Below, piece after piece: positions 23,073-32,866 of a DNA stretch of 37,325 bases. Position numbers and translations under genes: made by a program. Every line of letters begins with the position of its first letter. Within the stretch, counting starts at the first letter, position 1. Origin of the DNA: Acidobacteriota bacterium. GTDB taxonomy: Bacteria > Acidobacteriota > Terriglobia > Bryobacterales > Bryobacteraceae. The notes below the pieces were generated by a model. That model did no database searches and was not told the DNA's origin. It saw nothing but the letters and a program-made list of their open reading frames with translations. The stretch spans positions 1 to 37,325 of the forward strand of contig JAPKZB010000021.1 in the NCBI GenBank assembly GCA_026393985.1, given 5' to 3'.

Positions 23073-23076
<4 letters not shown>

Positions 23077-24377
23077 CCAAGCAGCGCCGCAATCGCGTCC
23101 GCGTCGTTCGGAACCACCGTGGGTTTGTTGCCAAACGTGGACGTGAGCGGCTCGCCGTGCGGACCCTTCAAAACGCCGGTGTGATAGTGGTAAATGTAAT
23201 CCGGGTCCTTCAGCACGTTGCCCGTCAACACCGCCACCACATCGGCATCCGCCCGCATCACCCCGGCGGCTACCAGTTTCTTAATGCCGGCCAGCGTCGC
23301 CGCCGAAGCCGGTTCGCAGCCGATGCCGCAGGCGCCAATCACCGCCTTGGCGTCGGCAATCTCCTGCTCGCTCGCCCGTTCCACCACCCCGCCCGAGGTT
23401 TCGATCTCCAGCAGCGCCTTCGGATAACTCACCGGATCGCCAATCTTAATCGCCGTCGCCAGCGTCTCCGGCTTCTTCACCGTCGGAAAGTGGTCCTTAT
23501 CCGCCTGCCGGACATAATCATAGAACGGCGCCGACCCGGCCGCCTGCACCACCGCCAGCCGCGGCAGCTTATCAATCAGCCCTAAGTCGAGTAACTCCCG
23601 CAGCCCCTTGCCAAACGCGCTGACGTTGCCTAAGTTTCCGCCCGGCAGCACCACCCAGTCCGGCACCTGCCAATCGCGCTGATCAAGCATCTCAATCACA
23701 ATCGACTTCTGGCCCTCAATCCGGAACGGATTCACCGAATTCAGCAGATAAATCCCCAGCCGGTCGGCCAGCACCCGCACCAGCGCCAGAATCTGGTCAA
23801 AGTTTGCTTCCACCTGTAGCGTCCGCGCCCCGTAATCAAGCGCCTGCGACAGTTTCCCAAAGGCGATGTTGCCGTTGGGGATGAAGATAATCGGATCCAG
23901 CCCCGACGTGGCCGCATAAGCGGCCATCGACGCCGACGTATTGCCCGTCGACACGCACGCCACCCGCCGCATCCCCAGCCGCTTGGCCTGCGTCGCCCCG
24001 CAAGTCATGCCGTTGTCTTTGAAGCTGCCCGTCGGGTTGAAGCCCTGATGCTTGAAGACGACGTTGTCGAGCCCGGCGTATGCCGCCGCCTTGGCGCCGG
24101 CGAGCAGCGGCGTGTTGCCCTCGCGCAGCGTTACCACGTGCTCAAAACCGTCAAAGAGGTCGAGCATCTCCCGGTAGCGCCACACGCCGGAAACATCGAG
24201 CGGCGCGTTCGATAGCCGGCGCTGCCGCCACAACTGCTTCCAGCCGGCAGCGGCGGTGCGGTCGTAGTCGATTTTGGCTTCGAGCAGCCCGTCGCAGCGG
24301 GTGCAGGCGTAGAGCACTTCGGTCGAAGCATATTCGGCCCGGCAGGAGGGGTTGAAACAGACAAGACGCGAGGACAT
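23073..24377 (-). CDS. thrC: Threonine synthase
   Basis: 434 residues from ATG 24377, which has AGGAAC upstream; the longer frame to 24455 runs into hisA. It converts O-phosphohomoserine to threonine with PLP. An N-terminal zinc ribbon (Cys7, Cys12, Cys25, Cys28) precedes the PLP domain with Lys120 in NPTGSFKDNGM, the VSTGNTSASMAAY phosphate/substrate loop and a C-terminal GNLGN-type loop (PGGNLGNVSAF). The gene begins 10 bp after hisA, so it is the distal gene of the his operon and should share its attenuation control. Confidence 0.94.
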
Positions 24378-24387
24378 GAAGAAGTTC

Positions 24388-25089
24388 CTATAACATTTTC
24401 CGGAGGTCGTCGAGCGAAAGACGGCCCGTGTAGATCGCCATGCCGAGCGCGGCATGGACGTTCATCGCCTGTAGCGCCCGCACATCGTCGAGCGTGGTCA
24501 CCCCGCCCGCCGCCGTCAGTTCGTGCTCGGGGCTCATGGCGGCCCGCAGCCGCCGGAACCAGTCGAGGTCCGTGCCCTGCATCATGCCCTCTTTGTCCAC
24601 ATAAGTGCACAGAAAGCCGCTGCAGTAAGGTTCGAGCTGACTCACTAACTCCTCCGCCGTAAAGTTCAGCGATTCAGTCCAGCCCTTTACGGTAATCCGG
24701 CCGCCCTTCGAGTCCATGGCGATCAGTAGCTTGTCCTGCCCCACGGCCGCCACCATCTCCGACAGCAGCGCATGGTTGGGCCCGTCCGCCCGGAAGGCCG
24801 ACGTGCCGACAATCACGCGGTGGGCGCCTTGTTCCACCAGCTTTTCCGCCCGCTCCGGCGTCCGCACCCCGCCGCCCACCCGGCACCGGGCCTTGGCGCA
24901 CAGCGCTTCGACAATCGCATCGTTCTCCCCGCGGCCTAGCGCCGCGTCGAGATCGATGACCTGAATCTCGGGAAACCCAGCAAACTTCTGGAGCATCACC
25001 TCCGGCGCATCGCCCTCGAGCGCCTTCTCTTTTCCTTGCACAAGCTGGACGACTTTGCCGTCCATTAGATCAATACAGGGTAGAATCAC
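24388..25089 (-). CDS. hisA: ProFAR isomerase HisA
   Basis: 233 residues from GTG 25089, which overlaps the hisF stop (GTGA). This TIM barrel isomerises the aminoaldose ProFAR to PRFAR in step 4 of histidine synthesis. The catalytic aspartates are Asp7 ([11 protein letters not shown]) and Asp126 (IAMDSKGG). Phosphate-binding loops VGGGVRTPE and [10 protein letters not shown] are present. The longer open frame to 25383 is spurious because it lies inside hisF. Confidence 0.95.
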
Positions 25090-25853
25090 TGGGTTCTCCG
25101 GACGACAATGCCGCGTTTGTCGAGAAACTCTTTGAGGTCGTCGACGCTGTAAGTGCCGAAGTGGAAGATACTGGCCGCCAGCGCCGCGTCGGCCTCGCCC
25201 TCGGTCAGGACTTTGAGGAAGTGTTCGGGCTTGCCCGCGCCCCCGCTCGCGATCACCGGAATGCGCGTCGCCCGCGAAACGGCCGCCGTCAGTTCGCAGT
25301 CGAAGCCGTCTTGCACCCCGTCGGTATCCATCGACGTCAGCAGGATCTCTCCGGCGCCCAACTCCATGCCCCGGGCCGCCCACGCCACCGCGTCCATGCC
25401 TTCGTCTACCCGTCCGCCCTTGGTGAAGACGTTCCAGCCGCCACCACCGGCGCGCCGCCGCGCGTCGATGGCCAGCACCACGGCCTGCGCCCCGAACTCG
25501 TTCGACAGCAGCGTAATCAAATGCGGGTCGCGCACCGCCGCCGTGTTTACGCTCACCTTATCTGCCCCGGCCATCAGAATCTTGCGAGCATCAACTACCG
25601 ACCGGATGCCGCCACCCACCGTCAGCGGAATAAACACCTTCTGCGCCGTCCGCGCCACCACATCCACCATCGTGTTCCGCTCGTCCGAAGAGGCTGTAAT
25701 GTCGAGAAATACAAGCTCATCGGCCCCCTGCGCGTTGTAGCGCTCAGAGAGTTCCACCGGGTCGCCCGCGTCTTTCAAGTTGACGAAGTTAATGCCCTTG
25801 ACCACCCGGCCGGCGGTGACGTCAAGGCAGGGAATAATGCGTTTTGCCAGCAT
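25086..25853 (-). CDS. hisF: Imidazole glycerol phosphate synthase, cyclase subunit HisF
   Basis: 255 residues. The catalytic Asp11 (IPCLDV) and Asp130 (LAIDARR) occupy the canonical positions. It joins PRFAR with ammonia from HisH to give imidazole glycerol phosphate and AICAR. The ATG at 25853 is the conserved start ([11 protein letters not shown]) and lies 4 bp after the hisH stop. The GTGA overlap couples it to hisA. Confidence 0.97.
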
Positions 25854-25857
25854 GGTG

Positions 25858-26457
25858 TCAAAGGTCCACGAAGTTTTTAACAATTTGTAACCCCAACGCG
25901 CCCGACTTCTCCGGGTGGAACTGAACCCCGTAGACGTTCTCGTGCTCGAGCACGGCGGTAAACGGCTCGGAGTAGATACAGGTCGCCGCGGCGTATTCGT
26001 GCGCCGGAACGTAGTAACTATGAGCGAAGTAGAGATAGGGCCGCGGCGGCAAGTTCCGCAGCAGGCGCGAACCGGCCCGGACCTCCAACTCGTTCCAACC
26101 CATGTGCGGCACCCGCGCATCGTCGGGAAAACGCCTCACCTTGCCCGCGAACAGCCCTAGGCCCTCGAGGTCCGGCGCCTCTTCGCTCGCCTCGAACATC
26201 GCCTGCAGCCCCAGGCAGATCCCCAGAAAAGGCACGCCCTGCGCAATCCGCATCAGCAGCGGCTTCCGGACCCGCATCGCATCGAGCGAACGCACCATCT
26301 GCCCGAAGTGCCCCACGCCCGGCAGAATAATCTTTTCGGCCGCCAGCAGCCCTTCGGCGTCGTCCACCAGTTCGTACTGCGCTCCGATCGCCCCCAGCGT
26401 ATTCAGCACGCTGCGCAGGTTGCCGGCGCCGTAATCGAAGACCACCACCTTGCTCAT
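25858..26457 (-). CDS. hisH: Imidazole glycerol phosphate synthase, glutaminase subunit HisH
   Basis: 199 residues, a class I glutamine amidotransferase. The nucleophile is Cys81 (LGICLGLQ), with His181 and Glu183 in FHPEKSG. The conserved start is [16 protein letters not shown] 26457 overlaps the hisB stop (ATGA), so hisB and hisH are coupled. It feeds ammonia to HisF, encoded next. Confidence 0.97.
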
Positions 26458-27056
26458 GCCTTGGTGCCCTCGAGCAGCCCCTTGGTGGAGGGCAGCTGAT
26501 CCTTCAGACGGGCGTCTTTCGAGGTAGCAAACTTCATCGCCCGCGCAAAGCACTTGAAGATACTTTCGAGCTTGTGATGGTTGCTGCGCCCGTACAGTAC
26601 CTTACAGTGCACATTGGCCCCGGCGTGCACGGCAAAACCGTCAAAAAAATCGTGCACTAACTCGGTCTGTAAGTCGCCCACCAGCCGGACCTTGACTAAG
26701 TCTGCGTAAACCAGTGCCGGCCGCCCGCCCAGATCCACCGCCACCACCGACAGCGTCTCATCCATCGGCATCACAAAGTAACCGGCCCGGTTGATCCCCT
26801 TACGGTCGCCGAGCGCCTGCGCAAACAGCTGCCCGAGCGCGATGCCCACGTCTTCCACGGTATGGTGCTGATCCACATCGAGATCGCCCGTGGCGGTCAG
26901 TTCAAGGTCGAACCCGCCGTGCTTGGTGAACAGCTCGAGCATGTGATCGAAGAAGCGAATGCCGGTAGAGATCTGATACCGGCCCTTGCCTTCGATCTTC
27001 AGTTTGCCGCGGATCTGCGTCTCTTTGGTAATCCGTTCGACGGTTGCGGTTCTCAT
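26454..27056 (-). CDS. hisB: Imidazoleglycerol-phosphate dehydratase
   Basis: 200 residues, the monofunctional form without the fused N-terminal phosphatase of E. coli. The manganese-binding motifs are visible: [20 protein letters not shown], and the later [21 protein letters not shown]. It dehydrates IGP to imidazole acetol phosphate. ATGA overlaps at both ends link it to the upstream HAD phosphatase and to hisH downstream. Confidence 0.97.
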
Positions 27057-27706
27057 AAGCTTTCGAGTGCTCCAGCGAGGTCGTTAATGCTCGGGATCAA
27101 TGCCTGGGCCCCTTCGGCCAGCAGCAGGGCGCCCGTATCCCCGTGGCCAATCCCGATAAACGGTACCCCGGCCAATTTCGCGCTGCGCGCATCGTCTACC
27201 GTGTCGCCAATGTAATAGAAGCGTTCGCCCGGAAACTCGGACATAATCCGCAGCATCCCCTCCGGATCCGGCTTGCCGTACTGGACATCATCGGCGCCGA
27301 CGACGGGTGCAAACTTCAGGCCCGCGGCGAAACGGTCGAGCGTCATCTGCGCCTCGGCCCGTTCTCGGCCGGTGAAGATGGAAAAGGCGTATCGTTCGGC
27401 CAGGCTTTCAAGCACCCCGGGCCGCGCAATCCACTGCTCCCGCTGCATCAGCCCTCCGGCTCCGTCCCCAAAGAAGATCTTCTGGAAGTATTCGACTACC
27501 ACGGGATAGTCCACTTCGACGCCCAGGTCCCGCGCAATCTTCTGCGATAACTGCCAGTCGTTATTCCAGCCGCCGGCGTTCTTATAGTCCTGAATCCGGC
27601 TCCGGGCGATGGTTTGCCCCGTGAAATGCTGCACCGTGCGGACAATGGTTTCGCGATAGGACTCGGTGACGTCAACCAGCACGCCGTCCATATCGAAGAT
27701 GATCAT
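27053..27706 (-). CDS. HAD-superfamily phosphatase, probable histidinol-phosphate phosphatase
   Basis: 217 residues from ATG 27706, which makes an ATGA overlap with the hisC stop; GTG 27718 is the alternative. HAD motifs: Asp5 and Asp7 in [10 protein letters not shown], Thr in IFTGRE, Lys in YGKPDPEGM and the acidic pair in YIGDTVDDA, with a helical cap between motifs I and II, hence subfamily IA. Relatives of the TIGR01548 type are known from histidine gene contexts. The step from histidinol phosphate to histidinol has no other candidate here, and the gene sits between hisC (step before) and hisB. The assignment is by context and is not proven. Confidence 0.8.
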
Positions 27707-28773
27707 TTCTTGCGCCACAGCTCTTCCAACTCCTTGAGTAAGATGCGCATCTGCTGCCGCGTGCCCACCGTGATCCGGACGCAGCCGGCAATCTCGTAAC
27801 TGCGGTCGCGCACTAGCACGCCGCGCTCGCGCAGACCATCGCGGATGGCGATGGCCCGGTCTCCCATTTGGGTCAGCACGAAGTTACCCTGGCTCTTGAT
27901 GTAGGGTATATTCAGCTTCTCGAGACCCACATACAGTAATTCTCGCGCCGCGAGCACCTCGCCCACATAACGCTCAACAAATTGCGGGTCCCGGATGGCC
28001 GCCCGCGCCGCCAGCACCGCGAGCGAATTCACTGAGTACGGGCTCTGCGCCTTGCGGAGCCAGTCGACGTTGGCCGCCTGCGTGAACAGGCAGCCGATCC
28101 GCAGCGCCGCCATGCCATAAACCTTCGAAAACGTGCGCGAGACAAACAGATTCGGGAAGTCTTTCAACATCCCGAGCGCCGTCACGCCCGAGAACTCGTA
28201 GTAGGCTTCGTCAATCAGCACCGCCGCGTGCGGCGCGCGCTTGACAATCCGGACGATGCCGTCAAGATCAACGCCCGTGCCCGTGGGGTTGTTCGGGTTC
28301 GAGATCAAAATGGCCTTCGTGGTAGGTTGAATCGCCCCGAGTAACTCCTGCAGCGGAAAGCTCAGCGTCCCGGCGCGGTAGGCGATCTCGCGCACCTGCG
28401 CCCCGGCCACTTCGGCGTAGAACCGGTACATGGCGTAGGCCGGCTTCAGAATCAGTACCTCATCCTCGTCATCGACGTAAGTGTTGATGAGGATCTGAAT
28501 CGCCTCGTCCGTCCCGTTGGTCAAGGCGAATTCATTCTCGGCGACTTTGAAGTAGGCGGCGAGTTCGCGCCGCGCGTCGTTGTATTCCGGGTAAACGGCC
28601 AGGTCGTTCTCAACCAAGTGTTCGACGAGAAACTGCGTAACTTTGGGCGAACAGCCGACTGTGTTTTCGTTAAAGTCCAGTCGGAGTTTTTCGCCGCGGC
28701 CACCCGTGGGCGGATGGTAGGGCGCCATCCGTTCGACGGCTGGGCGGGGACGGAGCTTGGAACTATTTGGCAC
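27703..28773 (-). CDS. hisC: Histidinol-phosphate aminotransferase
   Basis: 356 residues from GTG 28773, which has GGAGG 7 nt upstream; the start overlaps the hisD end by 11 bp. Fold-type I aminotransferase with LDFNENTVG at the N-terminus, the NPNNPTGT motif at about 159-166, the PLP aspartate in LIDEAYYEF, and Lys217 in RTFSK as Schiff base. The arginine near the end (GCVRITVGT) binds the substrate carboxylate or phosphate. It converts imidazole acetol phosphate to histidinol phosphate. Confidence 0.95.
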   Translation of the reverse strand: MPNSSKLRPRPAVERMAPYHPPTGGRGEKLRLDFNENTVGCSPKVTQFLVEHLVENDLAVYPEYNDARRELAAYFKVAENEFALTNGTDEAIQILINTYVDDEDEVLILKPAYAMYRFYAEVAGAQVREIAYRAGTLSFPLQELLGAIQPTTKAILISNPNNPTGTGVDLDGIVRIVKRAPHAAVLIDEAYYEFSGVTALGMLKDFPNLFVSRTFSKVYGMAALRIGCLFTQAANVDWLRKAQSPYSVNSLAVLAARAAIRDPQFVERYVGEVLAARELLYVGLEKLNIPYIKSQGNFVLTQMGDRAIAIRDGLRERGVLVRDRSYEIAGCVRITVGTRQQMRILLKELEELWRKK

Positions 28774-30007
28774 GGCGCGCCTCCACCGAACGGGCGTGGG
28801 CTTCAAGGCCCTCGGCGCGGGCGAGCGTGGTGACGGCGGGCGTGAGCTTGGCCAGCGCCGCGGCGCTCAACTCCTGCGTCGAGATCACTTTCACGTAATC
28901 GGCCGCCGAAAGGCCCCCGCGCAGCCGGGCGGCGCCGCTCGTGGGCAACACATGGTTCGGTCCGCTGGCGTAGTCGCCAGCTGCCTCCGGGCTGTGCGGG
29001 CCAATGAAAACGCTACCGGCGTGGCGGATCTTTTTGAGCCACGCCGCCGAGGGGATCGAAAGATGTTCCGGGGCGAAGCGGTTGGCCACTTCAATCGCCT
29101 CGTCGACCGAGTCCATCAGAATGATGGCTGAGTTCTTCTCAATGGCGACGCGCGCCGTCTTGGCCGTGGTCAGCGTGCTGAGTTGCTTGTCGATTTCGCT
29201 CTGCACGGCCAGGGCGAGCTGCTTCGAGGTGGTCAGCAGCACGGCCGAAGCATCGGTATCGTGCTCCGCCTGCGCCAGCATGTCCGCCGCGATCCAGGCC
29301 GGGTTGCCGTCCTCGGCGATCATGAGAATCTCCGTCGGGCCGGCAATAAAGTCGATGCCAACCTCGCCCGCCAGCAGCTTCTTCGCCGCCGCGACATAGA
29401 TATTCCCCGGTCCGACAATGCGGTCCGCCCGTGGCACCGTCTTGGTCCCGTAGGCGAACGCGGCGATGGCCTGCGCGCCGCCGATTTGAAACACGTTCGG
29501 AACTTGCAACAGAGACGCCGTGCCGTAGATCTCCGGCACCACGCGCGGCGAGGTGACGCAAATGTTCGCGACGCCGGCCACCTGCGCCGGAATGACGGTC
29601 ATCAGCAAGGTCGACGGCAGCGGGTAGCGGCCGGCCGGAATGTAGGCCGCCACGGTGTCGAGCGGACGGACGATCTGCCCCAGTTTCAGGCCCGGCGAAA
29701 CGGTGACCGACTTCGGCGTAGGCAGTTGGAGTTTCGCGTAGGCACGGATGTTGGCCGCCGCGGTCTTCACCGCTGCTTTGAAGGCGGGGGAGAGGCCTTG
29801 GGCGGCCGCGGCCAATTCGCTCTCGGGCACCCGCACCGTCTTCCGTTCGAGCCCGTCAAACTGCCGGGCATATTCGAGCACCGCCGCATCGCCCCGTTTC
29901 TTCACGGCCTCGAGCATGGGTTTCACCACCGCCTCGGCCTCGCCCAGCCGGGCGGCCTTCCGCGACAGAATCTTTGTAACCTGACCGGCGTCGACTATCT
30001 TGATCAT
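28763..30007 (-). CDS. hisD: Histidinol dehydrogenase
   Basis: 414 residues. It oxidises histidinol to histidine in two NAD-dependent steps. Probable zinc ligands are Gln246, His249 (AQAEHD), Asp345 (GDYASGPNH) and His404; catalytic Glu314-His315 lie in FAPEHLS. The NAD region contains GPGNIYV and AGPTEI. It starts 12 bp after the hisG stop. The hisC start lies within its last codons. Confidence 0.97.
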   Translation of the reverse strand: MIKIVDAGQVTKILSRKAARLGEAEAVVKPMLEAVKKRGDAAVLEYARQFDGLERKTVRVPESELAAAAQGLSPAFKAAVKTAAANIRAYAKLQLPTPKSVTVSPGLKLGQIVRPLDTVAAYIPAGRYPLPSTLLMTVIPAQVAGVANICVTSPRVVPEIYGTASLLQVPNVFQIGGAQAIAAFAYGTKTVPRADRIVGPGNIYVAAAKKLLAGEVGIDFIAGPTEILMIAEDGNPAWIAADMLAQAEHDTDASAVLLTTSKQLALAVQSEIDKQLSTLTTAKTARVAIEKNSAIILMDSVDEAIEVANRFAPEHLSIPSAAWLKKIRHAGSVFIGPHSPEAAGDYASGPNHVLPTSGAARLRGGLSAADYVKVISTQELSAAALAKLTPAVTTLARAEGLEAHARSVEARRAK

Positions 30008-30019
30008 AGGCCCCCCGCC

Positions 30020-30898
30020 TTACATCACAATCTTATTCAGCGGATACTCGACAATCCCCTGCGCCCCGGCGGCCTTGAGCCGCGGAATCAGGTTCCGCAC
30101 GGTGATCTCGTCCAGGATCGTGTTCACTGCCACCCACTCCGAGTCGCTCAGCTGCGAAACGGTGGGGTTCTTCAGCGCCGGCAGCGTAGCCAGCACCTTT
30201 TCCAGGTCGGCCCGCCGCACGTTCAGCATCAGGCCCACCTTGCCGAGCGCGGCGATGGCGCCATCGAGCAGCAGGCGGACGTCGCTCAACTTCTGTTGCT
30301 TCCAGGCATCGGCCCAGGAGGTCTTATTGGCGATCAACTGCGTATTCGAGCTCATCAACTCCTCGACGATCCGCAGCTTATTGGCCCGCAGCGAGGAGCC
30401 GGTTTCGGTCACCTCGACAATCGCATCGGCCAGCACCGGCGGCTTCACCTCGGTCGCGCCCCAGGAGAACTCAACTTTTGCCGTCACCCCGTTGGCCTTC
30501 AAATAGTTCTTCGTGAATTGCACCAGTTCGGTGGCGATGATCTTGCCTTCGAGGTCCTTGACGCTCTGCACGGGCGAAGATTCGGGTACCGCCAGCACCC
30601 AGCGCACCTTGCCGAAGCTGGCCTTCGAGTAGACGAGATCCGCTACCGTCTCCACTTCGGCCTCAGACTCTTTCACCCAGTCAAGACCCGTCAAACCCGC
30701 GTCCAGAATGCCGTCTTCGACATAGCGGGCCATCTCCTGCGCCCGGATGAGCATGCACTCAATCTCCGGATCATCAATCGAAGGAAAGTAACTGCGGCTC
30801 GACACCGAGATATTAAATCCGGCGCGGCGGAACAGATCAATCGTCGCGTTTTCGAGACTGCCCTTCGGAATACCGAGCTTTAACTTCTTATTTGTCAT
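30020..30898 (-). CDS. hisG: ATP phosphoribosyltransferase, long form HisG
   Basis: 292 residues, the long HisG with a C-terminal ACT-like regulatory domain (about 215-290), so no HisZ is needed and histidine feedback is expected. It commits ATP and PRPP to the pathway. The start motif [18 protein letters not shown] and the [10 protein letters not shown] block are typical. The PRPP loop region appears as [13 protein letters not shown]. It overlaps hisI by 11 bp. Confidence 0.96.
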
Positions 30899-31262
30899 AT
30901 ACCGCCTTCGGATCGTAAGTTGGCGTCTCGGAGACCTGCCACTCCCCGTCCGTCAGCGTCCGGAAGAAGCAGCTTTCGTAACCTTCGTGGCAGACGCCCG
31001 GTCCCACCGGATCCACCTGCACCAGCACCGCATCCCGGTCGCAGTCGGTTTCTATCGACTTGACCAACAGTTTATGGCCGGAGGATTCGCCCTTGAGCCA
31101 CAGTTTCTGGCGGCTGCGCGAGAAGAAGATCGCGTAGCCCCGCTCGACAGTCAGCCGGAACGACTCCTCGTTCATGTACCCGACCATGAGAATCCGCTTG
31201 GTTTCGTAGTGCTGAATGACGGCGGTTACCAGGCCGTCCGATTTTTTGAAGTCTAGATCCAT
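30888..31262 (-). CDS. hisI: Phosphoribosyl-AMP cyclohydrolase HisI
   Basis: 124 residues, the cyclohydrolase alone; the HisE pyrophosphatase domain often fused to it is absent. Metal ligands: Asp73, Asp75 and Asp77 (TDCDRDA) and Cys74, Cys91 and Cys98 (CHEGYESC). It opens the adenine ring of PR-AMP. It is the first structural gene of the operon and starts 5 nt after the T-run of the leader terminator. The only Shine-Dalgarno-like stretch (GGCGGG) lies inside the terminator's 3' arm, so initiation may also depend on leader folding. Confidence 0.95.
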
Positions 31263-31266
31263 AAAT

Positions 31267-31292
31267 GAAAAACCCGCCGTTTTCGCGGCGGG
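31267..31292 (-). terminator. Attenuator terminator of the histidine operon
   Basis: On the minus strand CCCGCCG (31292-31286), loop CGAAAA, CGGCGGG (31279-31273), then TTTTT. Seven G/C pairs plus a U-run ending 5 nt before the hisI ATG. A terminator between promoter and first gene makes sense only as a conditional one. Confidence 0.8.
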
Positions 31293-31349
31293 CTGGTGAG
31301 GAAGTCATCGAAGCTTGCGAGGAGACAATCGCGAAGCTACAGTCCAGCC
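31291..31349 (-). promoter_or_regulatory. Alternative leader RNA pairings: antiterminator and post-leader hairpin
   Basis: GGCTGG at 31349-31344, in the last codons of the leader ORF, is complementary to CCAGCC at 31296-31291, which overlaps the first bases of the terminator's 5' arm; forming this pair would hinder the terminator. Between them AGCTT-C-GCGA (31338-31329) pairs with TCGCAAGCT (31320-31312), nine pairs with one bulge, beginning at the leader stop codon. A ribosome stalled at the His codons would leave GGCTGG free, whereas one at the stop codon would cover it. The model is inferred from the sequence. Confidence 0.6.
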
Positions 31350-31405
31350 TGCCCGTTCGCCGTATGGCGATGGTGAGAGTGCAGGCGATGGTGCGTGAAC
31401 CGCAT
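31337..31405 (-). CDS. hisL: Histidine-rich leader peptide of the his operon
   Basis: A 22-codon ORF, ATG 31405-31403 to TAG 31339-31337, beginning MRFTHHRLHSHHRH. Six of the ten residues 5-14 are His (5, 6, 9, 11, 12, 14), encoded by CAC and CAT. It lies between a promoter and the intrinsic terminator in front of hisI. This is the arrangement of ribosome-mediated histidine attenuation known from enterobacteria, with a different peptide (E. coli hisL has seven consecutive His). No Shine-Dalgarno precedes the ATG; the -10 box ends 8 nt upstream, so the leader is probably translated from a leaderless mRNA. The peptide itself need have no function. Confidence 0.85.
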   Translation of the reverse strand: MRFTHHRLHSHHRHTANGQAGL

Positions 31406-31413
31406 GAATCAAT

Positions 31414-31442
31414 AGAATAGCAAACTTCGCTAAGGCTGTCTC
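31414..31442 (-). promoter_or_regulatory. Promoter of the histidine operon
   Basis: On the minus strand GAGACA (31442-31437), a 17-bp spacer and TATTCT (31419-31414) with a TGC extension. The -35 lies within the last codons of the caspase-like gene. The expected start is within a few nucleotides of the hisL ATG. Confidence 0.55.
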
Positions 31443-32866
31443 GTCTGATTCAAAATTGCGGCGATGGCCTGCACGAACCTTGCGGCACGCGGCGGGCTGA
31501 TCAGCAGGGGCAAGCCGTTCGGGTTGTCGCGCACCTCCGTTGTCGGGTCGACGAAGTTGAAGTTCTGGGTCTTGCCGTTCTCGTCATTAATTTTCAGACT
31601 GAGAAACGGAACGCCCTGAGTATTGCTGGTGGCCCGCGCCGCGACGAGGTTGGCGAGCGGCAGCGAAAAGTTTTTGCCCGTGCAGTTGCCACCCGTGATC
31701 TGGTATTGGATCAGGTCGCGGGAGACCGTCAGGCTGGCGGCATGCGCGCCGGTCAGGGTGTGATGGTGGCCGACGCTGAACGGCAGCGTGGCTCCGGCCC
31801 GGAGCGCCTGAACCGCGGTGGCCGCAAACAGCTCCCACTGCTGCTCGCGGAAATGCACATAGGCGAGCAGCAGCAGGGCCTCGCGATGGTTCGGCTCGCC
31901 GCGCAGAATCTCCTGCGCGATGCGGGCGGCCTGCTGGGTATCGCCGCGCTGGTAGGCCGCGTTGCCCGCGGCGAGATCCGGCACCGGGTCCTGCGGCCGC
32001 TCCACCGGCGCCACGGAATTGGTCATGATGCGGGCCAGCGGATTCTGCACGGGCGGCCGGGCAACGGCCACGGTTTCGGACGCCGGTGGCGGCGGCAGCG
32101 CGGGCGCCGTACCCCCCGGGCCGGGCCGCAAGTAGACATCGCCTATTACGCTCGATACCGTCCAGGGCACCTGCCGGCCGCCCGAGGCGTTATGGACCCG
32201 CTCGCGGACGCGGTTGAACACCTGGTCGAGCGTCAGACCGGGCTCTTTGAGCGCGGTCACCAGATGCGAGGTAAACAGGCCATTATTGCCGTTCGGGTTA
32301 TCATCGGCCGTCTTGCCCGGCGCGGTGGCGAACGCAATCAGCGTGCCTTTGCCCGAACCCATGGCCGCCAGGCCGCCGTTAGCCGATCGCGTGGCCGCAA
32401 ACGGGTTGTTGCGGCAGGCGTCGAGGACGACCAGCGTCACCCGCGCCCCCGCCTTTTCGATGCGCTCCTGCACCCGCGAGGCGGCATAGGCCGCATACTT
32501 GGCGTCTGCTTCGTCTTTGGCGTCGAAATCAACCGGTACCAGGTAGTTTTCGCCTTCGAGTTGAATGCCGTGGCCCGCGTAGTAAAAGGCGACGACATCG
32601 CCCGGGCGGATCCGGCTCACGAGCGCCGAAACGGCACGGTCGAGATTCTGCAGCGTGACATCCACCGCCGTCGTCGTGGCAAAGCCGATCTCGCTGAGGG
32701 CCTGCGATACGGCCCGGGCGTCATTGGCCGGATTACGCAGTGGCCATTTCGGGTAGTTGCCGTTGCCGATGACAAGAGCGACCTTCCGAGGGGCCTCCAA
32801 CTTGATGTCGCGCTGCGGTGGCTGGGCACAGAGGGGCAGAGTCAGCAGAAGAGCCAGGAGTTTCAT
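31430..32866 (-). CDS. Secreted caspase-like (peptidase C14) protein
   Basis: 478 residues: signal peptide (MKLLALLLTLPLCAQ), a caspase-like p20 domain (about 28-250) with the dyad His99 (YYAGHGIQ) and Cys151 (LDACRNNPF), a Pro-rich linker, a TPR-like helical segment (AAYQRGDTQQAARIAQEILRG and following), and a C-terminal domain that I cannot name. Both catalytic residues are present, so it may be a working orthocaspase/metacaspase-like protease in the periplasm; substrates are unknown. It is the last gene of a three-gene minus-strand set, and its end carries the his promoter. Confidence 0.88.
   Translation of the reverse strand: MKLLALLLTLPLCAQPPQRDIKLEAPRKVALVIGNGNYPKWPLRNPANDARAVSQALSEIGFATTTAVDVTLQNLDRAVSALVSRIRPGDVVAFYYAGHGIQLEGENYLVPVDFDAKDEADAKYAAYAASRVQERIEKAGARVTLVVLDACRNNPFAATRSANGGLAAMGSGKGTLIAFATAPGKTADDNPNGNNGLFTSHLVTALKEPGLTLDQVFNRVRERVHNASGGRQVPWTVSSVIGDVYLRPGPGGTAPALPPPPASETVAVARPPVQNPLARIMTNSVAPVERPQDPVPDLAAGNAAYQRGDTQQAARIAQEILRGEPNHREALLLLAYVHFREQQWELFAATAVQALRAGATLPFSVGHHHTLTGAHAASLTVSRDLIQYQITGGNCTGKNFSLPLANLVAARATSNTQGVPFLSLKINDENGKTQNFNFVDPTTEVRDNPNGLPLLISPPRAARFVQAIAAILNQTRQP

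Follow-up and report, generated by a model that had tools for sequence, protein, structure and literature searches.

The window, the whole 37,325-nucleotide stretch of DNA that was analyzed, carries a histidine biosynthesis operon on its minus strand. The first structural gene is hisI (phosphoribosyl-AMP cyclohydrolase, 30888–31262, NCBIfam NF000768), followed by hisG (ATP phosphoribosyltransferase, 30020–30898, TIGR00070 and TIGR03455), hisD (histidinol dehydrogenase, 28763–30007, TIGR00069), hisC (histidinol-phosphate transaminase, 27703–28806, TIGR01141), a HAD-family hydrolase (27053–27718), hisB (imidazoleglycerol-phosphate dehydratase, 26454–27056, NF002111), hisH (25858–26553, TIGR01855), hisF (25086–26120, TIGR00735), hisA (24388–25383), and thrC (threonine synthase, 23073–24455, TIGR00260), the last gene of the run. 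Coordinates for hisH, hisF, and hisA are those of the ORFs as listed, in which the domains begin at residues 36, 90, and 100, respectively. All genes pass the curated cut-off of at least one NCBIfam model except hisA (TIGR00007, E = 1.1e-52) and the HAD gene (TIGR01548, E = 5.9e-36; above cut-off for PF13419), which fall below the cut-offs of their best NCBIfam models. These matches bear out the gene order hisIGDC-HAD-BHFA-thrC given in a first-pass annotation made from the sequence alone. The HAD hydrolase between hisC and hisB is perhaps a candidate histidinol-phosphate phosphatase, because hisB appears to be monofunctional.

A leader of ~140 bases separates hisI from a caspase-domain gene upstream on the same (minus) strand (31430–32866, PF00656). 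It contains an ORF of 22 codons, MRFTHHRLHSHHRHTANGQAGL, plus a stop codon (31337–31405, minus strand), with its ATG at 31405 and a TAG stop at 31339–31337. Direct reading confirms the six His codons that had been annotated among codons 5–14, at codons 5, 6, 9, 11, 12, and 14. Three helices are possible in this leader (1:2, 2:3, and 3:4). Segment 1, GCCTGC (31381–31386), lies within the His codons and can pair with segment 2 as a preemptor helix; segment 2, GGCAGGCTGG (31344–31353), can pair with segment 1 or segment 3; and segment 3, CCAGCCCGCC (31287–31296), is the antiterminator partner and overlaps the 5' arm of the terminator. Segment 1 was placed using the minimum free energy (MFE) fold, duplex calculation, and coevolution, and segments 2 and 3 using direct reading, duplex calculation, and coevolution. 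Helix 3:4 is the intrinsic terminator identified by the terminator scan, a stem-loop of nine pairs with a six-base CGAAAA loop (31271–31294) and a T-run at 31272–31268. The hisI ATG, at 31262, is five bases past the end of the T-run, so the G/C hairpin and T-run lie where the first-pass annotation had placed them. The pairing of GGCTGG (31349–31344) with CCAGCC (31296–31291), which it had also described, is present and extends to a duplex of GGCAGGCTGG with CCAGCCCGCC (31353–31344 with 31296–31287) with one mismatch. In the full-length MFE fold, a CCUG stretch among the His codons is paired with a CAGG close to the ORF's 3' end, and duplex calculation gives GCCTGC with GCAGGC as helix 1:2. Folding of the window also predicts a further hairpin, said to begin at the stop codon; it sits in a stretch that varies among relatives, and we do not retain it as a conserved element.

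Several of these features were compared with shuffled sequences. The window has one ATG-initiated ORF of 10–40 amino acids with at least six His in 12 codons, and 60 dinucleotide shuffles have none. The fold energy of the leader RNA was equalled by 1 of 200 shuffles. Terminator-like sites show no excess in the scanned region (nine, against a shuffle mean of 8.2), and the his terminator has the longest stem of the nine. Taken alone, neither the 2:3 complementarity nor the 1:2 duplex of the window is significant (reached by 17 and 53 of 200 shuffles, respectively); both are convincing only because relatives support them.

The promoter proposed for the leader, GAGACA (31442–31437) and TATTCT (31419–31414) separated by 17 nt, has the letters and spacing claimed for it and overlaps the 3' end of the caspase-domain gene. 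It matches the consensus at 8 of 12 positions by hand count and falls below the threshold of the promoter scan, whose two promoter-like sites are others. Most relatives have TATACT-like boxes with the same spacing, and the leader start codon is 8 nt after the −10 element in the window. In 41 of 57 family leaders, 8 or 9 nt separate the best TATACT-like box from the ATG, and five have no such box, when a wider range of spacers is allowed. Across 96 leaders (57 from the window's family and 39 from other families of the class), the −10 element is 8 or 9 nt from the ATG in 67, and seven have no box within the 5–11 nt spacers searched. Of the 89 leaders with a −10 element, 70 have a pyrimidine immediately before the ATG, and TTGACA-like −35 elements are common outside the window's family. 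Transcription usually starts ~7 nt past the −10 element; at this spacing, the mRNA should therefore begin at or next to the AUG. The leader mRNA is thus probably leaderless, with the ORF beginning at the predicted transcription start. Shine-Dalgarno-like 4-mers are rare before the leader ORF (7/96), which says little because they are also rare before hisI (10/57 family members). Some leaders may not be leaderless, for example L037, L047, and L048, in which the ATG is 12–18 nt from the box.

Conservation of the leader was examined in 61 genomes of the window's family, 59 of which have hisI, and all 59 upstream regions were read. A leader ORF with at least three His codons, ending 45–130 nt before hisI, is present in 56 of the 59; the exceptions are L007, with two His codons, and L010 and L032, with none. 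A second, named set consisted of the 80 loci best by hisI similarity and shares species with the family sample. At least three His in 12 codons precede hisI in 75 of these 80 loci, with L171, L185, L192, L200, and L224 lacking them (L224 is truncated by a contig end). The best named relatives are metagenome-assembled genomes (MAGs) titled Bryobacteraceae, Acidobacteria, and Candidatus Sulfopaludibacter, in agreement with the acidobacterial host suggested by the first-pass annotation. That annotation had also proposed aligning the regions upstream of hisI in relatives; in this alignment, the His-rich ORF and the terminator with its U-run are kept, and the pairing partners vary together.

Among eight close relatives, two of which have identical leaders, His is found at codons 9, 11, 12, and 14 in all eight, with CAT and CAC exchanging and other codons varying. 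The pN/pS of the leader ORF over all pairs of these relatives is a modest 0.62, and 28 of 68 pairwise changes at His positions are nonsynonymous. The terminator core of seven pairs is nearly invariant in 42 family leaders, and RNAalifold found covariation in none of the seven pairs in this set because the core hardly varies inside the family. All 57 family members have at least four T in the nine bases after the terminator arm. The motif GGAAAGGAC recurs in many family leaders (e.g., L003, L011, L012, L015, and L017), immediately ahead of the terminator arm and upstream of segment 3; it may be Shine-Dalgarno-like or pause-like.

The leader has been lost or shortened in L007, L010, and L032 of the family and in L171 and L192 of the named set. 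In L010 and L192, the leader ORF is deleted upstream of hisI, and the TATACT box and terminator are kept. The 69 bases before hisI in L171 (CAMDKT010000371.1) have no His codons, and the leader ATG is in frame through the terminator hairpin into hisI. This arrangement is a possible natural escape from attenuation.

Since RNAalifold gave no terminator covariation, coevolution of the pairing segments was evaluated in the 96 leaders using a partner-permutation test, in which the best duplex of each genome's own segments was compared to that of permuted partners. The mean for own partners was 21.66 for 2:3, compared to 18.85 for permuted partners, and 20.14 for 1:2, compared to 16.84; in both cases, none of 10,000 permutations reached the own-partner mean. 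When partners were permuted only within families, 0 of 5,000 permutations reached the own score for either helix. In single families, 2:3 scores were reached by 11 (the window's family), 65 (f6), and 172 (f10) of 10,000 permutations, and the signal was absent within f5 (5,639/10,000). The corresponding counts for 1:2 were 0 (the window's family), 4 (f6), 321 (f10), and 214 (f5). Individual duplexes reached the 5% level against shuffles in 19 (2:3) and 10 (1:2) of the 57 family leaders. Linked changes are visible between families: many leaders of the window's family have GCGACGGGC/GCCCGCCGC, members of f5 and f10 have GTGTCAGCGG/CCGCTGGCAC, and L099 (f11) and L101 (f3) have GCCGGG(C or T) with GCCCGGC and GCCGGGC. 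Judged from the sequences, the predicted antiterminator helix would be exclusive with the terminator, and the predicted 1:2 preemptor helix would lie inside the leader ORF, as in classical attenuators.

Folding calculations were used to compare leaders with a stalled ribosome, a ribosome at the stop codon, and no ribosome. For the full-length RNA of the window, equilibrium folding yields the terminator whichever of the three states is modeled, with an antiterminator probability of 0.00. The median of the 96 leaders is also the terminator, and a few (e.g., L005) prefer the antiterminator when the ribosome is stalled. The mean probability that freshly emerged segment 3 is paired upstream was 0.88 for stalled ribosomes, 0.30 for ribosomes at the stop codon, and 0.64 with no ribosome across the 96 leaders. 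The values for the window are 0.75, 0.44, and 0.72, so that its stalled and ribosome-free states hardly differ when segment 3 emerges. The stalled value exceeds the stop value in 95 of 96 leaders, a contrast that is partly trivial because the stop state leaves less RNA to pair. Shuffling segment 2 lowered the stalled value from 0.89 to 0.73, and the own value was above the shuffle mean in 81 of 95 leaders. Because equilibrium favors the terminator, the modeled switch would have to be kinetic and co-transcriptional, and it is plausible only in this form, as attenuators are thought to be.

The his leader very probably acts as a ribosome-mediated transcription attenuator that responds to histidine and whose leader-peptide mRNA is probably leaderless. 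Its anatomy, conservation, and the coevolution of its pairing segments were established here and support the ribosome-mediated histidine attenuation put forward in the first-pass annotation. We infer from the same sequences its start site, translation, stalling, premature termination, and response to charged tRNA-His. The transcript would begin at the leader AUG or no more than two bases from it, and a ribosome would load onto its 5' end with no need of a Shine-Dalgarno site. If charged tRNA-His is in short supply, the ribosome would stall in the His codons and cover segment 1, leaving segment 2 free to capture segment 3 as it leaves RNA polymerase; no terminator would form, and hisIGDC-HAD-BHFA-thrC would be transcribed. 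When charged tRNA-His is plentiful, the ribosome would reach the stop codon and cover segment 2, segment 3 would pair with segment 4, and transcription would end before hisI. With no ribosome, segment 1 would pair with segment 2, and the terminator would be expected to form as well.

Other explanations for the hairpin and ORF were considered. The hairpin might act mainly at translation, hiding the hisI start so that the leader ribosome controls translation of hisI and not termination. The hisI AUG is 10 nt after the GGCGGG arm in the window and 10–55 nt after it in the family (at most 20 nt in 28/57), few family members (10/57) have a Shine-Dalgarno-like 4-mer before hisI, and some attenuators do hide a ribosome-binding site instead of terminating (PMC9413887). 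A translational device would not need the T-rich stretch past the arm, however, which is present in 57 of 57 family members, and hisI is further from the hairpin in several other families. A translational effect could also add to termination, not replace it, and as the main mode of action it is unlikely. It is still harder to credit that the stem-loop is an ordinary terminator of the caspase-domain gene, combined with a chance His-rich ORF and with the his operon promoter below it. In its favor, the caspase-domain gene, encoded on the same strand, ends at 31430, and the scanned region has as many terminator-like sites as its shuffles. The T-run ends 5 nt before hisI and therefore leaves no room for a promoter, however, and all three elements (leader, terminator, and pairing) are found again in other families and classes. 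The absence of such an ORF in 60 shuffles (0/60) and the presence of the leader in 56 of 59 family genomes lead us to reject chance or a terminator of the upstream gene.

The terminated leader RNA or the His-rich peptide might also act in trans, like rnTrpL/peTrpL of Sinorhizobium meliloti (PMC7298713). This precedent is the argument in its favor, but the peptide varies freely apart from its His codons, so a conserved peptide function is unlikely, and we regard trans action as quite improbable. Transcription attenuation by the leader ribosome is the explanation that we prefer.

We searched for the leader outside the window's family using covariance models. A model of the window's family (R1) was run on 151 class genomes and had matches in 140 (E ≤ 0.1), many of them partial or terminator-only, so that this is not a count of leaders. 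Regions of the class outside the family were chosen by full-length R1 matches, and 39 of 40 have a His leader, all 39 of which encode hisI. The R1 match L125 was rejected as a his leader and is another leader, before hisS. A class-wide model (R2) matched 38 of 159 phylum genomes (E ≤ 0.001), a mixture of which 22 are outside the class, and 16 of these were read. His leaders are present in 14 of these 16 R2-chosen regions, before hisI (n = 5), hisG (n = 5; four named by NCBIfam and L154 by tblastn), hisD (n = 2), and hisZ (n = 2). On reading, the model matches L156, L160, and L159 (G000:C63) are not his leaders.

A harder test used 24 class genomes with no R1 matches or with weak or partial ones, including 9 of the 11 class genomes without any R1 match; two have no hisI, and L349 and L351 were left out. 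A His leader precedes hisI in 7 of the 21 loci of these genomes (f5, f6, f7, and f10), and no leader was found before hisI in the other 14 (one in f2, five in f4, five in f8, and three in f9). L334 (f4) is 269 bases from a contig end; in all other leader-less loci of f4 and f8, hisI follows an apparent hisF end when the DNA is read. With 14 of 21 such loci lacking it, the leader is wide but not universal, and within the class it goes with operons in which no his gene precedes hisI.

Twelve of the 80 named loci are labeled as belonging outside Acidobacteriota, and all 12 have a His leader before hisI. Seven are labeled Ferrithrix, Acidimicrobium, Acidimicrobiaceae, or Actinobacteria, two Fimbriimonadaceae, and three Chthoniobacterales. 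R2 matches span the whole model in all 12 and are weak in two (L203, 8e-5; L228, 2e-4), and hisG is next after hisI in all five that were checked (L203, L211, L228, L231, and L233). A rough, midpoint-rooted tree of hisI and hisG was constructed from 143 loci, 86 of which have a long hisG. The three other-phylum groups fall inside a Bryobacterales branch whose other members all come from the window's family or the named set, with supports along the way from 0.0 to 0.935. The loci had been selected for the similarity of their hisI to that of the window, and the tree contains no leader-less outgroup from those phyla. Transfer between phyla, in one direction or the other, is likely. One Fimbriimonadaceae record is titled chromosome (CP075366.1), which disfavors mis-binning for that locus; mis-binning is possible for the loci from Chthoniobacterales MAGs.

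A broader history is conceivable, which we put forward tentatively and with doubts that slightly outweigh our confidence. The leaderless His attenuator may be an old default regulator of histidine synthesis in Acidobacteriota that was kept as the first gene changed (hisI, hisG, hisD, or hisZ), and that moved with hisI-hisG from Bryobacterales into Armatimonadota (Fimbriimonadaceae), Actinomycetota (Acidimicrobiaceae), and perhaps Verrucomicrobiota. Coupling would then be set by leaderless initiation and not by a Shine-Dalgarno site, because the leader mRNA would begin with its own AUG and the first ribosome would load once the 5' end appears.

Leaders for other amino acids were also looked for or encountered. 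An ORF rich in Ile, Leu, and Val precedes ilvB in all seven family genomes examined, including the window's own (L307, L309, L310, and L311–L314; L310 is on G000:C63, upstream of ilvB at 142260–143942, minus strand). This ORF ends in VPA or GPA in six of the seven, and a hairpin with a T-run follows it, identified by script for L309, L310, L312, and L314 and by eye for L307, L311, and L313. In the window's genus, it has a GTG start 6 nt past a −10-like box. These features suggest a second attenuator of the branched-chain amino acid (BCAA) type, and that leader-peptide attenuation there is not confined to histidine. No clear His leader was found before hisS in the 16 upstream regions that were read, out of 22 hisS loci. 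A script that considered only regions with a terminator-like hairpin found no convincing leader before trpE or leuA (22 loci each; in nine trpE-like loci, the match begins inside the gene), and L277 from this survey has an ORF with two Trp codons. L125 (G082:C1:109254-110253) has a leader-like, Asn-rich ORF with two His, MSMNRHNHANEDANRNASLRCRSC, and a terminator before hisS, identified from the best match of the partial protein (TIGR00442). L156 (G259:C46:7540-8537) has a short ORF, MRFDLRTYAYTVTHPGRVSVRPSS, directly past a −10-like box and followed by a terminator, before phenylalanine 4-monooxygenase; this is possibly an aromatic amino-acid leader.

Comparative studies report His leaders from Proteobacteria and Firmicutes (PMC9413887, PMC2965389) and leaders of other kinds from Actinobacteria (PMC1262725). 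One survey counts leader genes in Acidobacteria by distance only and names histidyl-tRNA control for gamma-proteobacteria (PMC4833913). In a 2010 study, nearly all attenuators predicted in Acidobacteria lacked an associated function (PMC2965389). A literature search on attenuation and leader peptides in Acidobacteria gave no his case among the matches listed, with most subscription journals outside its coverage. The mechanism is already known. As far as the literature was searched, the leader family is new, and so are its spread and its probable leaderless start. Acidobacteriota are common in soil and difficult to study genetically; the leader gives them an amino-acid regulator supported by sequence evidence, together with the concrete prediction that a sensing device operates through leaderless translation. 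Because one switch is found before different first genes and under the labels of other phyla, the evolution of an attenuator, and its transfer, can be traced.

No Rfam model, the T-box model included, matched the window at its gathering score. At E values up to 10, the region 31200–31500 matched only RF02278 (19.7 bits; gathering score, 50) and RF01379 (14.8 bits; gathering score, 45), with no match to RF00514 (His_leader), and the window leader is therefore not a member of that Rfam family. It shares with the enterobacterial and proteobacterial his attenuator (RF00514) a His-rich ORF, exclusive helices, an intrinsic terminator, and a his operon downstream. It differs in that it is probably leaderless, in that its His codons are interrupted in the window's genus, and in that hisI is first in the operon, whereas hisG is first in the his operon of Escherichia coli. 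The principle of coupling his attenuation to charged tRNA-His has been summarized previously (PMC9413887). Candidate His leaders in Firmicutes are described for the Bacillus cereus group, Eubacteriales, and Erysipelotrichales (PMC9413887), and hisS/hisZ leaders for bacilli (PMC2965389). Like the leader in the window, these have a short His-rich ORF and a terminator before his genes, with an antiterminator as well in one account (PMC9413887). They differ in belonging to another phylum. Leaderless polycysteine attenuator ORFs in mycobacteria were reportedly described by Canestrari in 2020. The trpL attenuator ORF of S. meliloti is also leaderless and encodes 14 residues (PMC7298713). In both of these systems, as is probable here, the leader ORF begins at the 5' end of the transcript. 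They concern tryptophan and cysteine, whereas the leader in Acidobacteriota is directed at histidine and recurs in several classes of one phylum.
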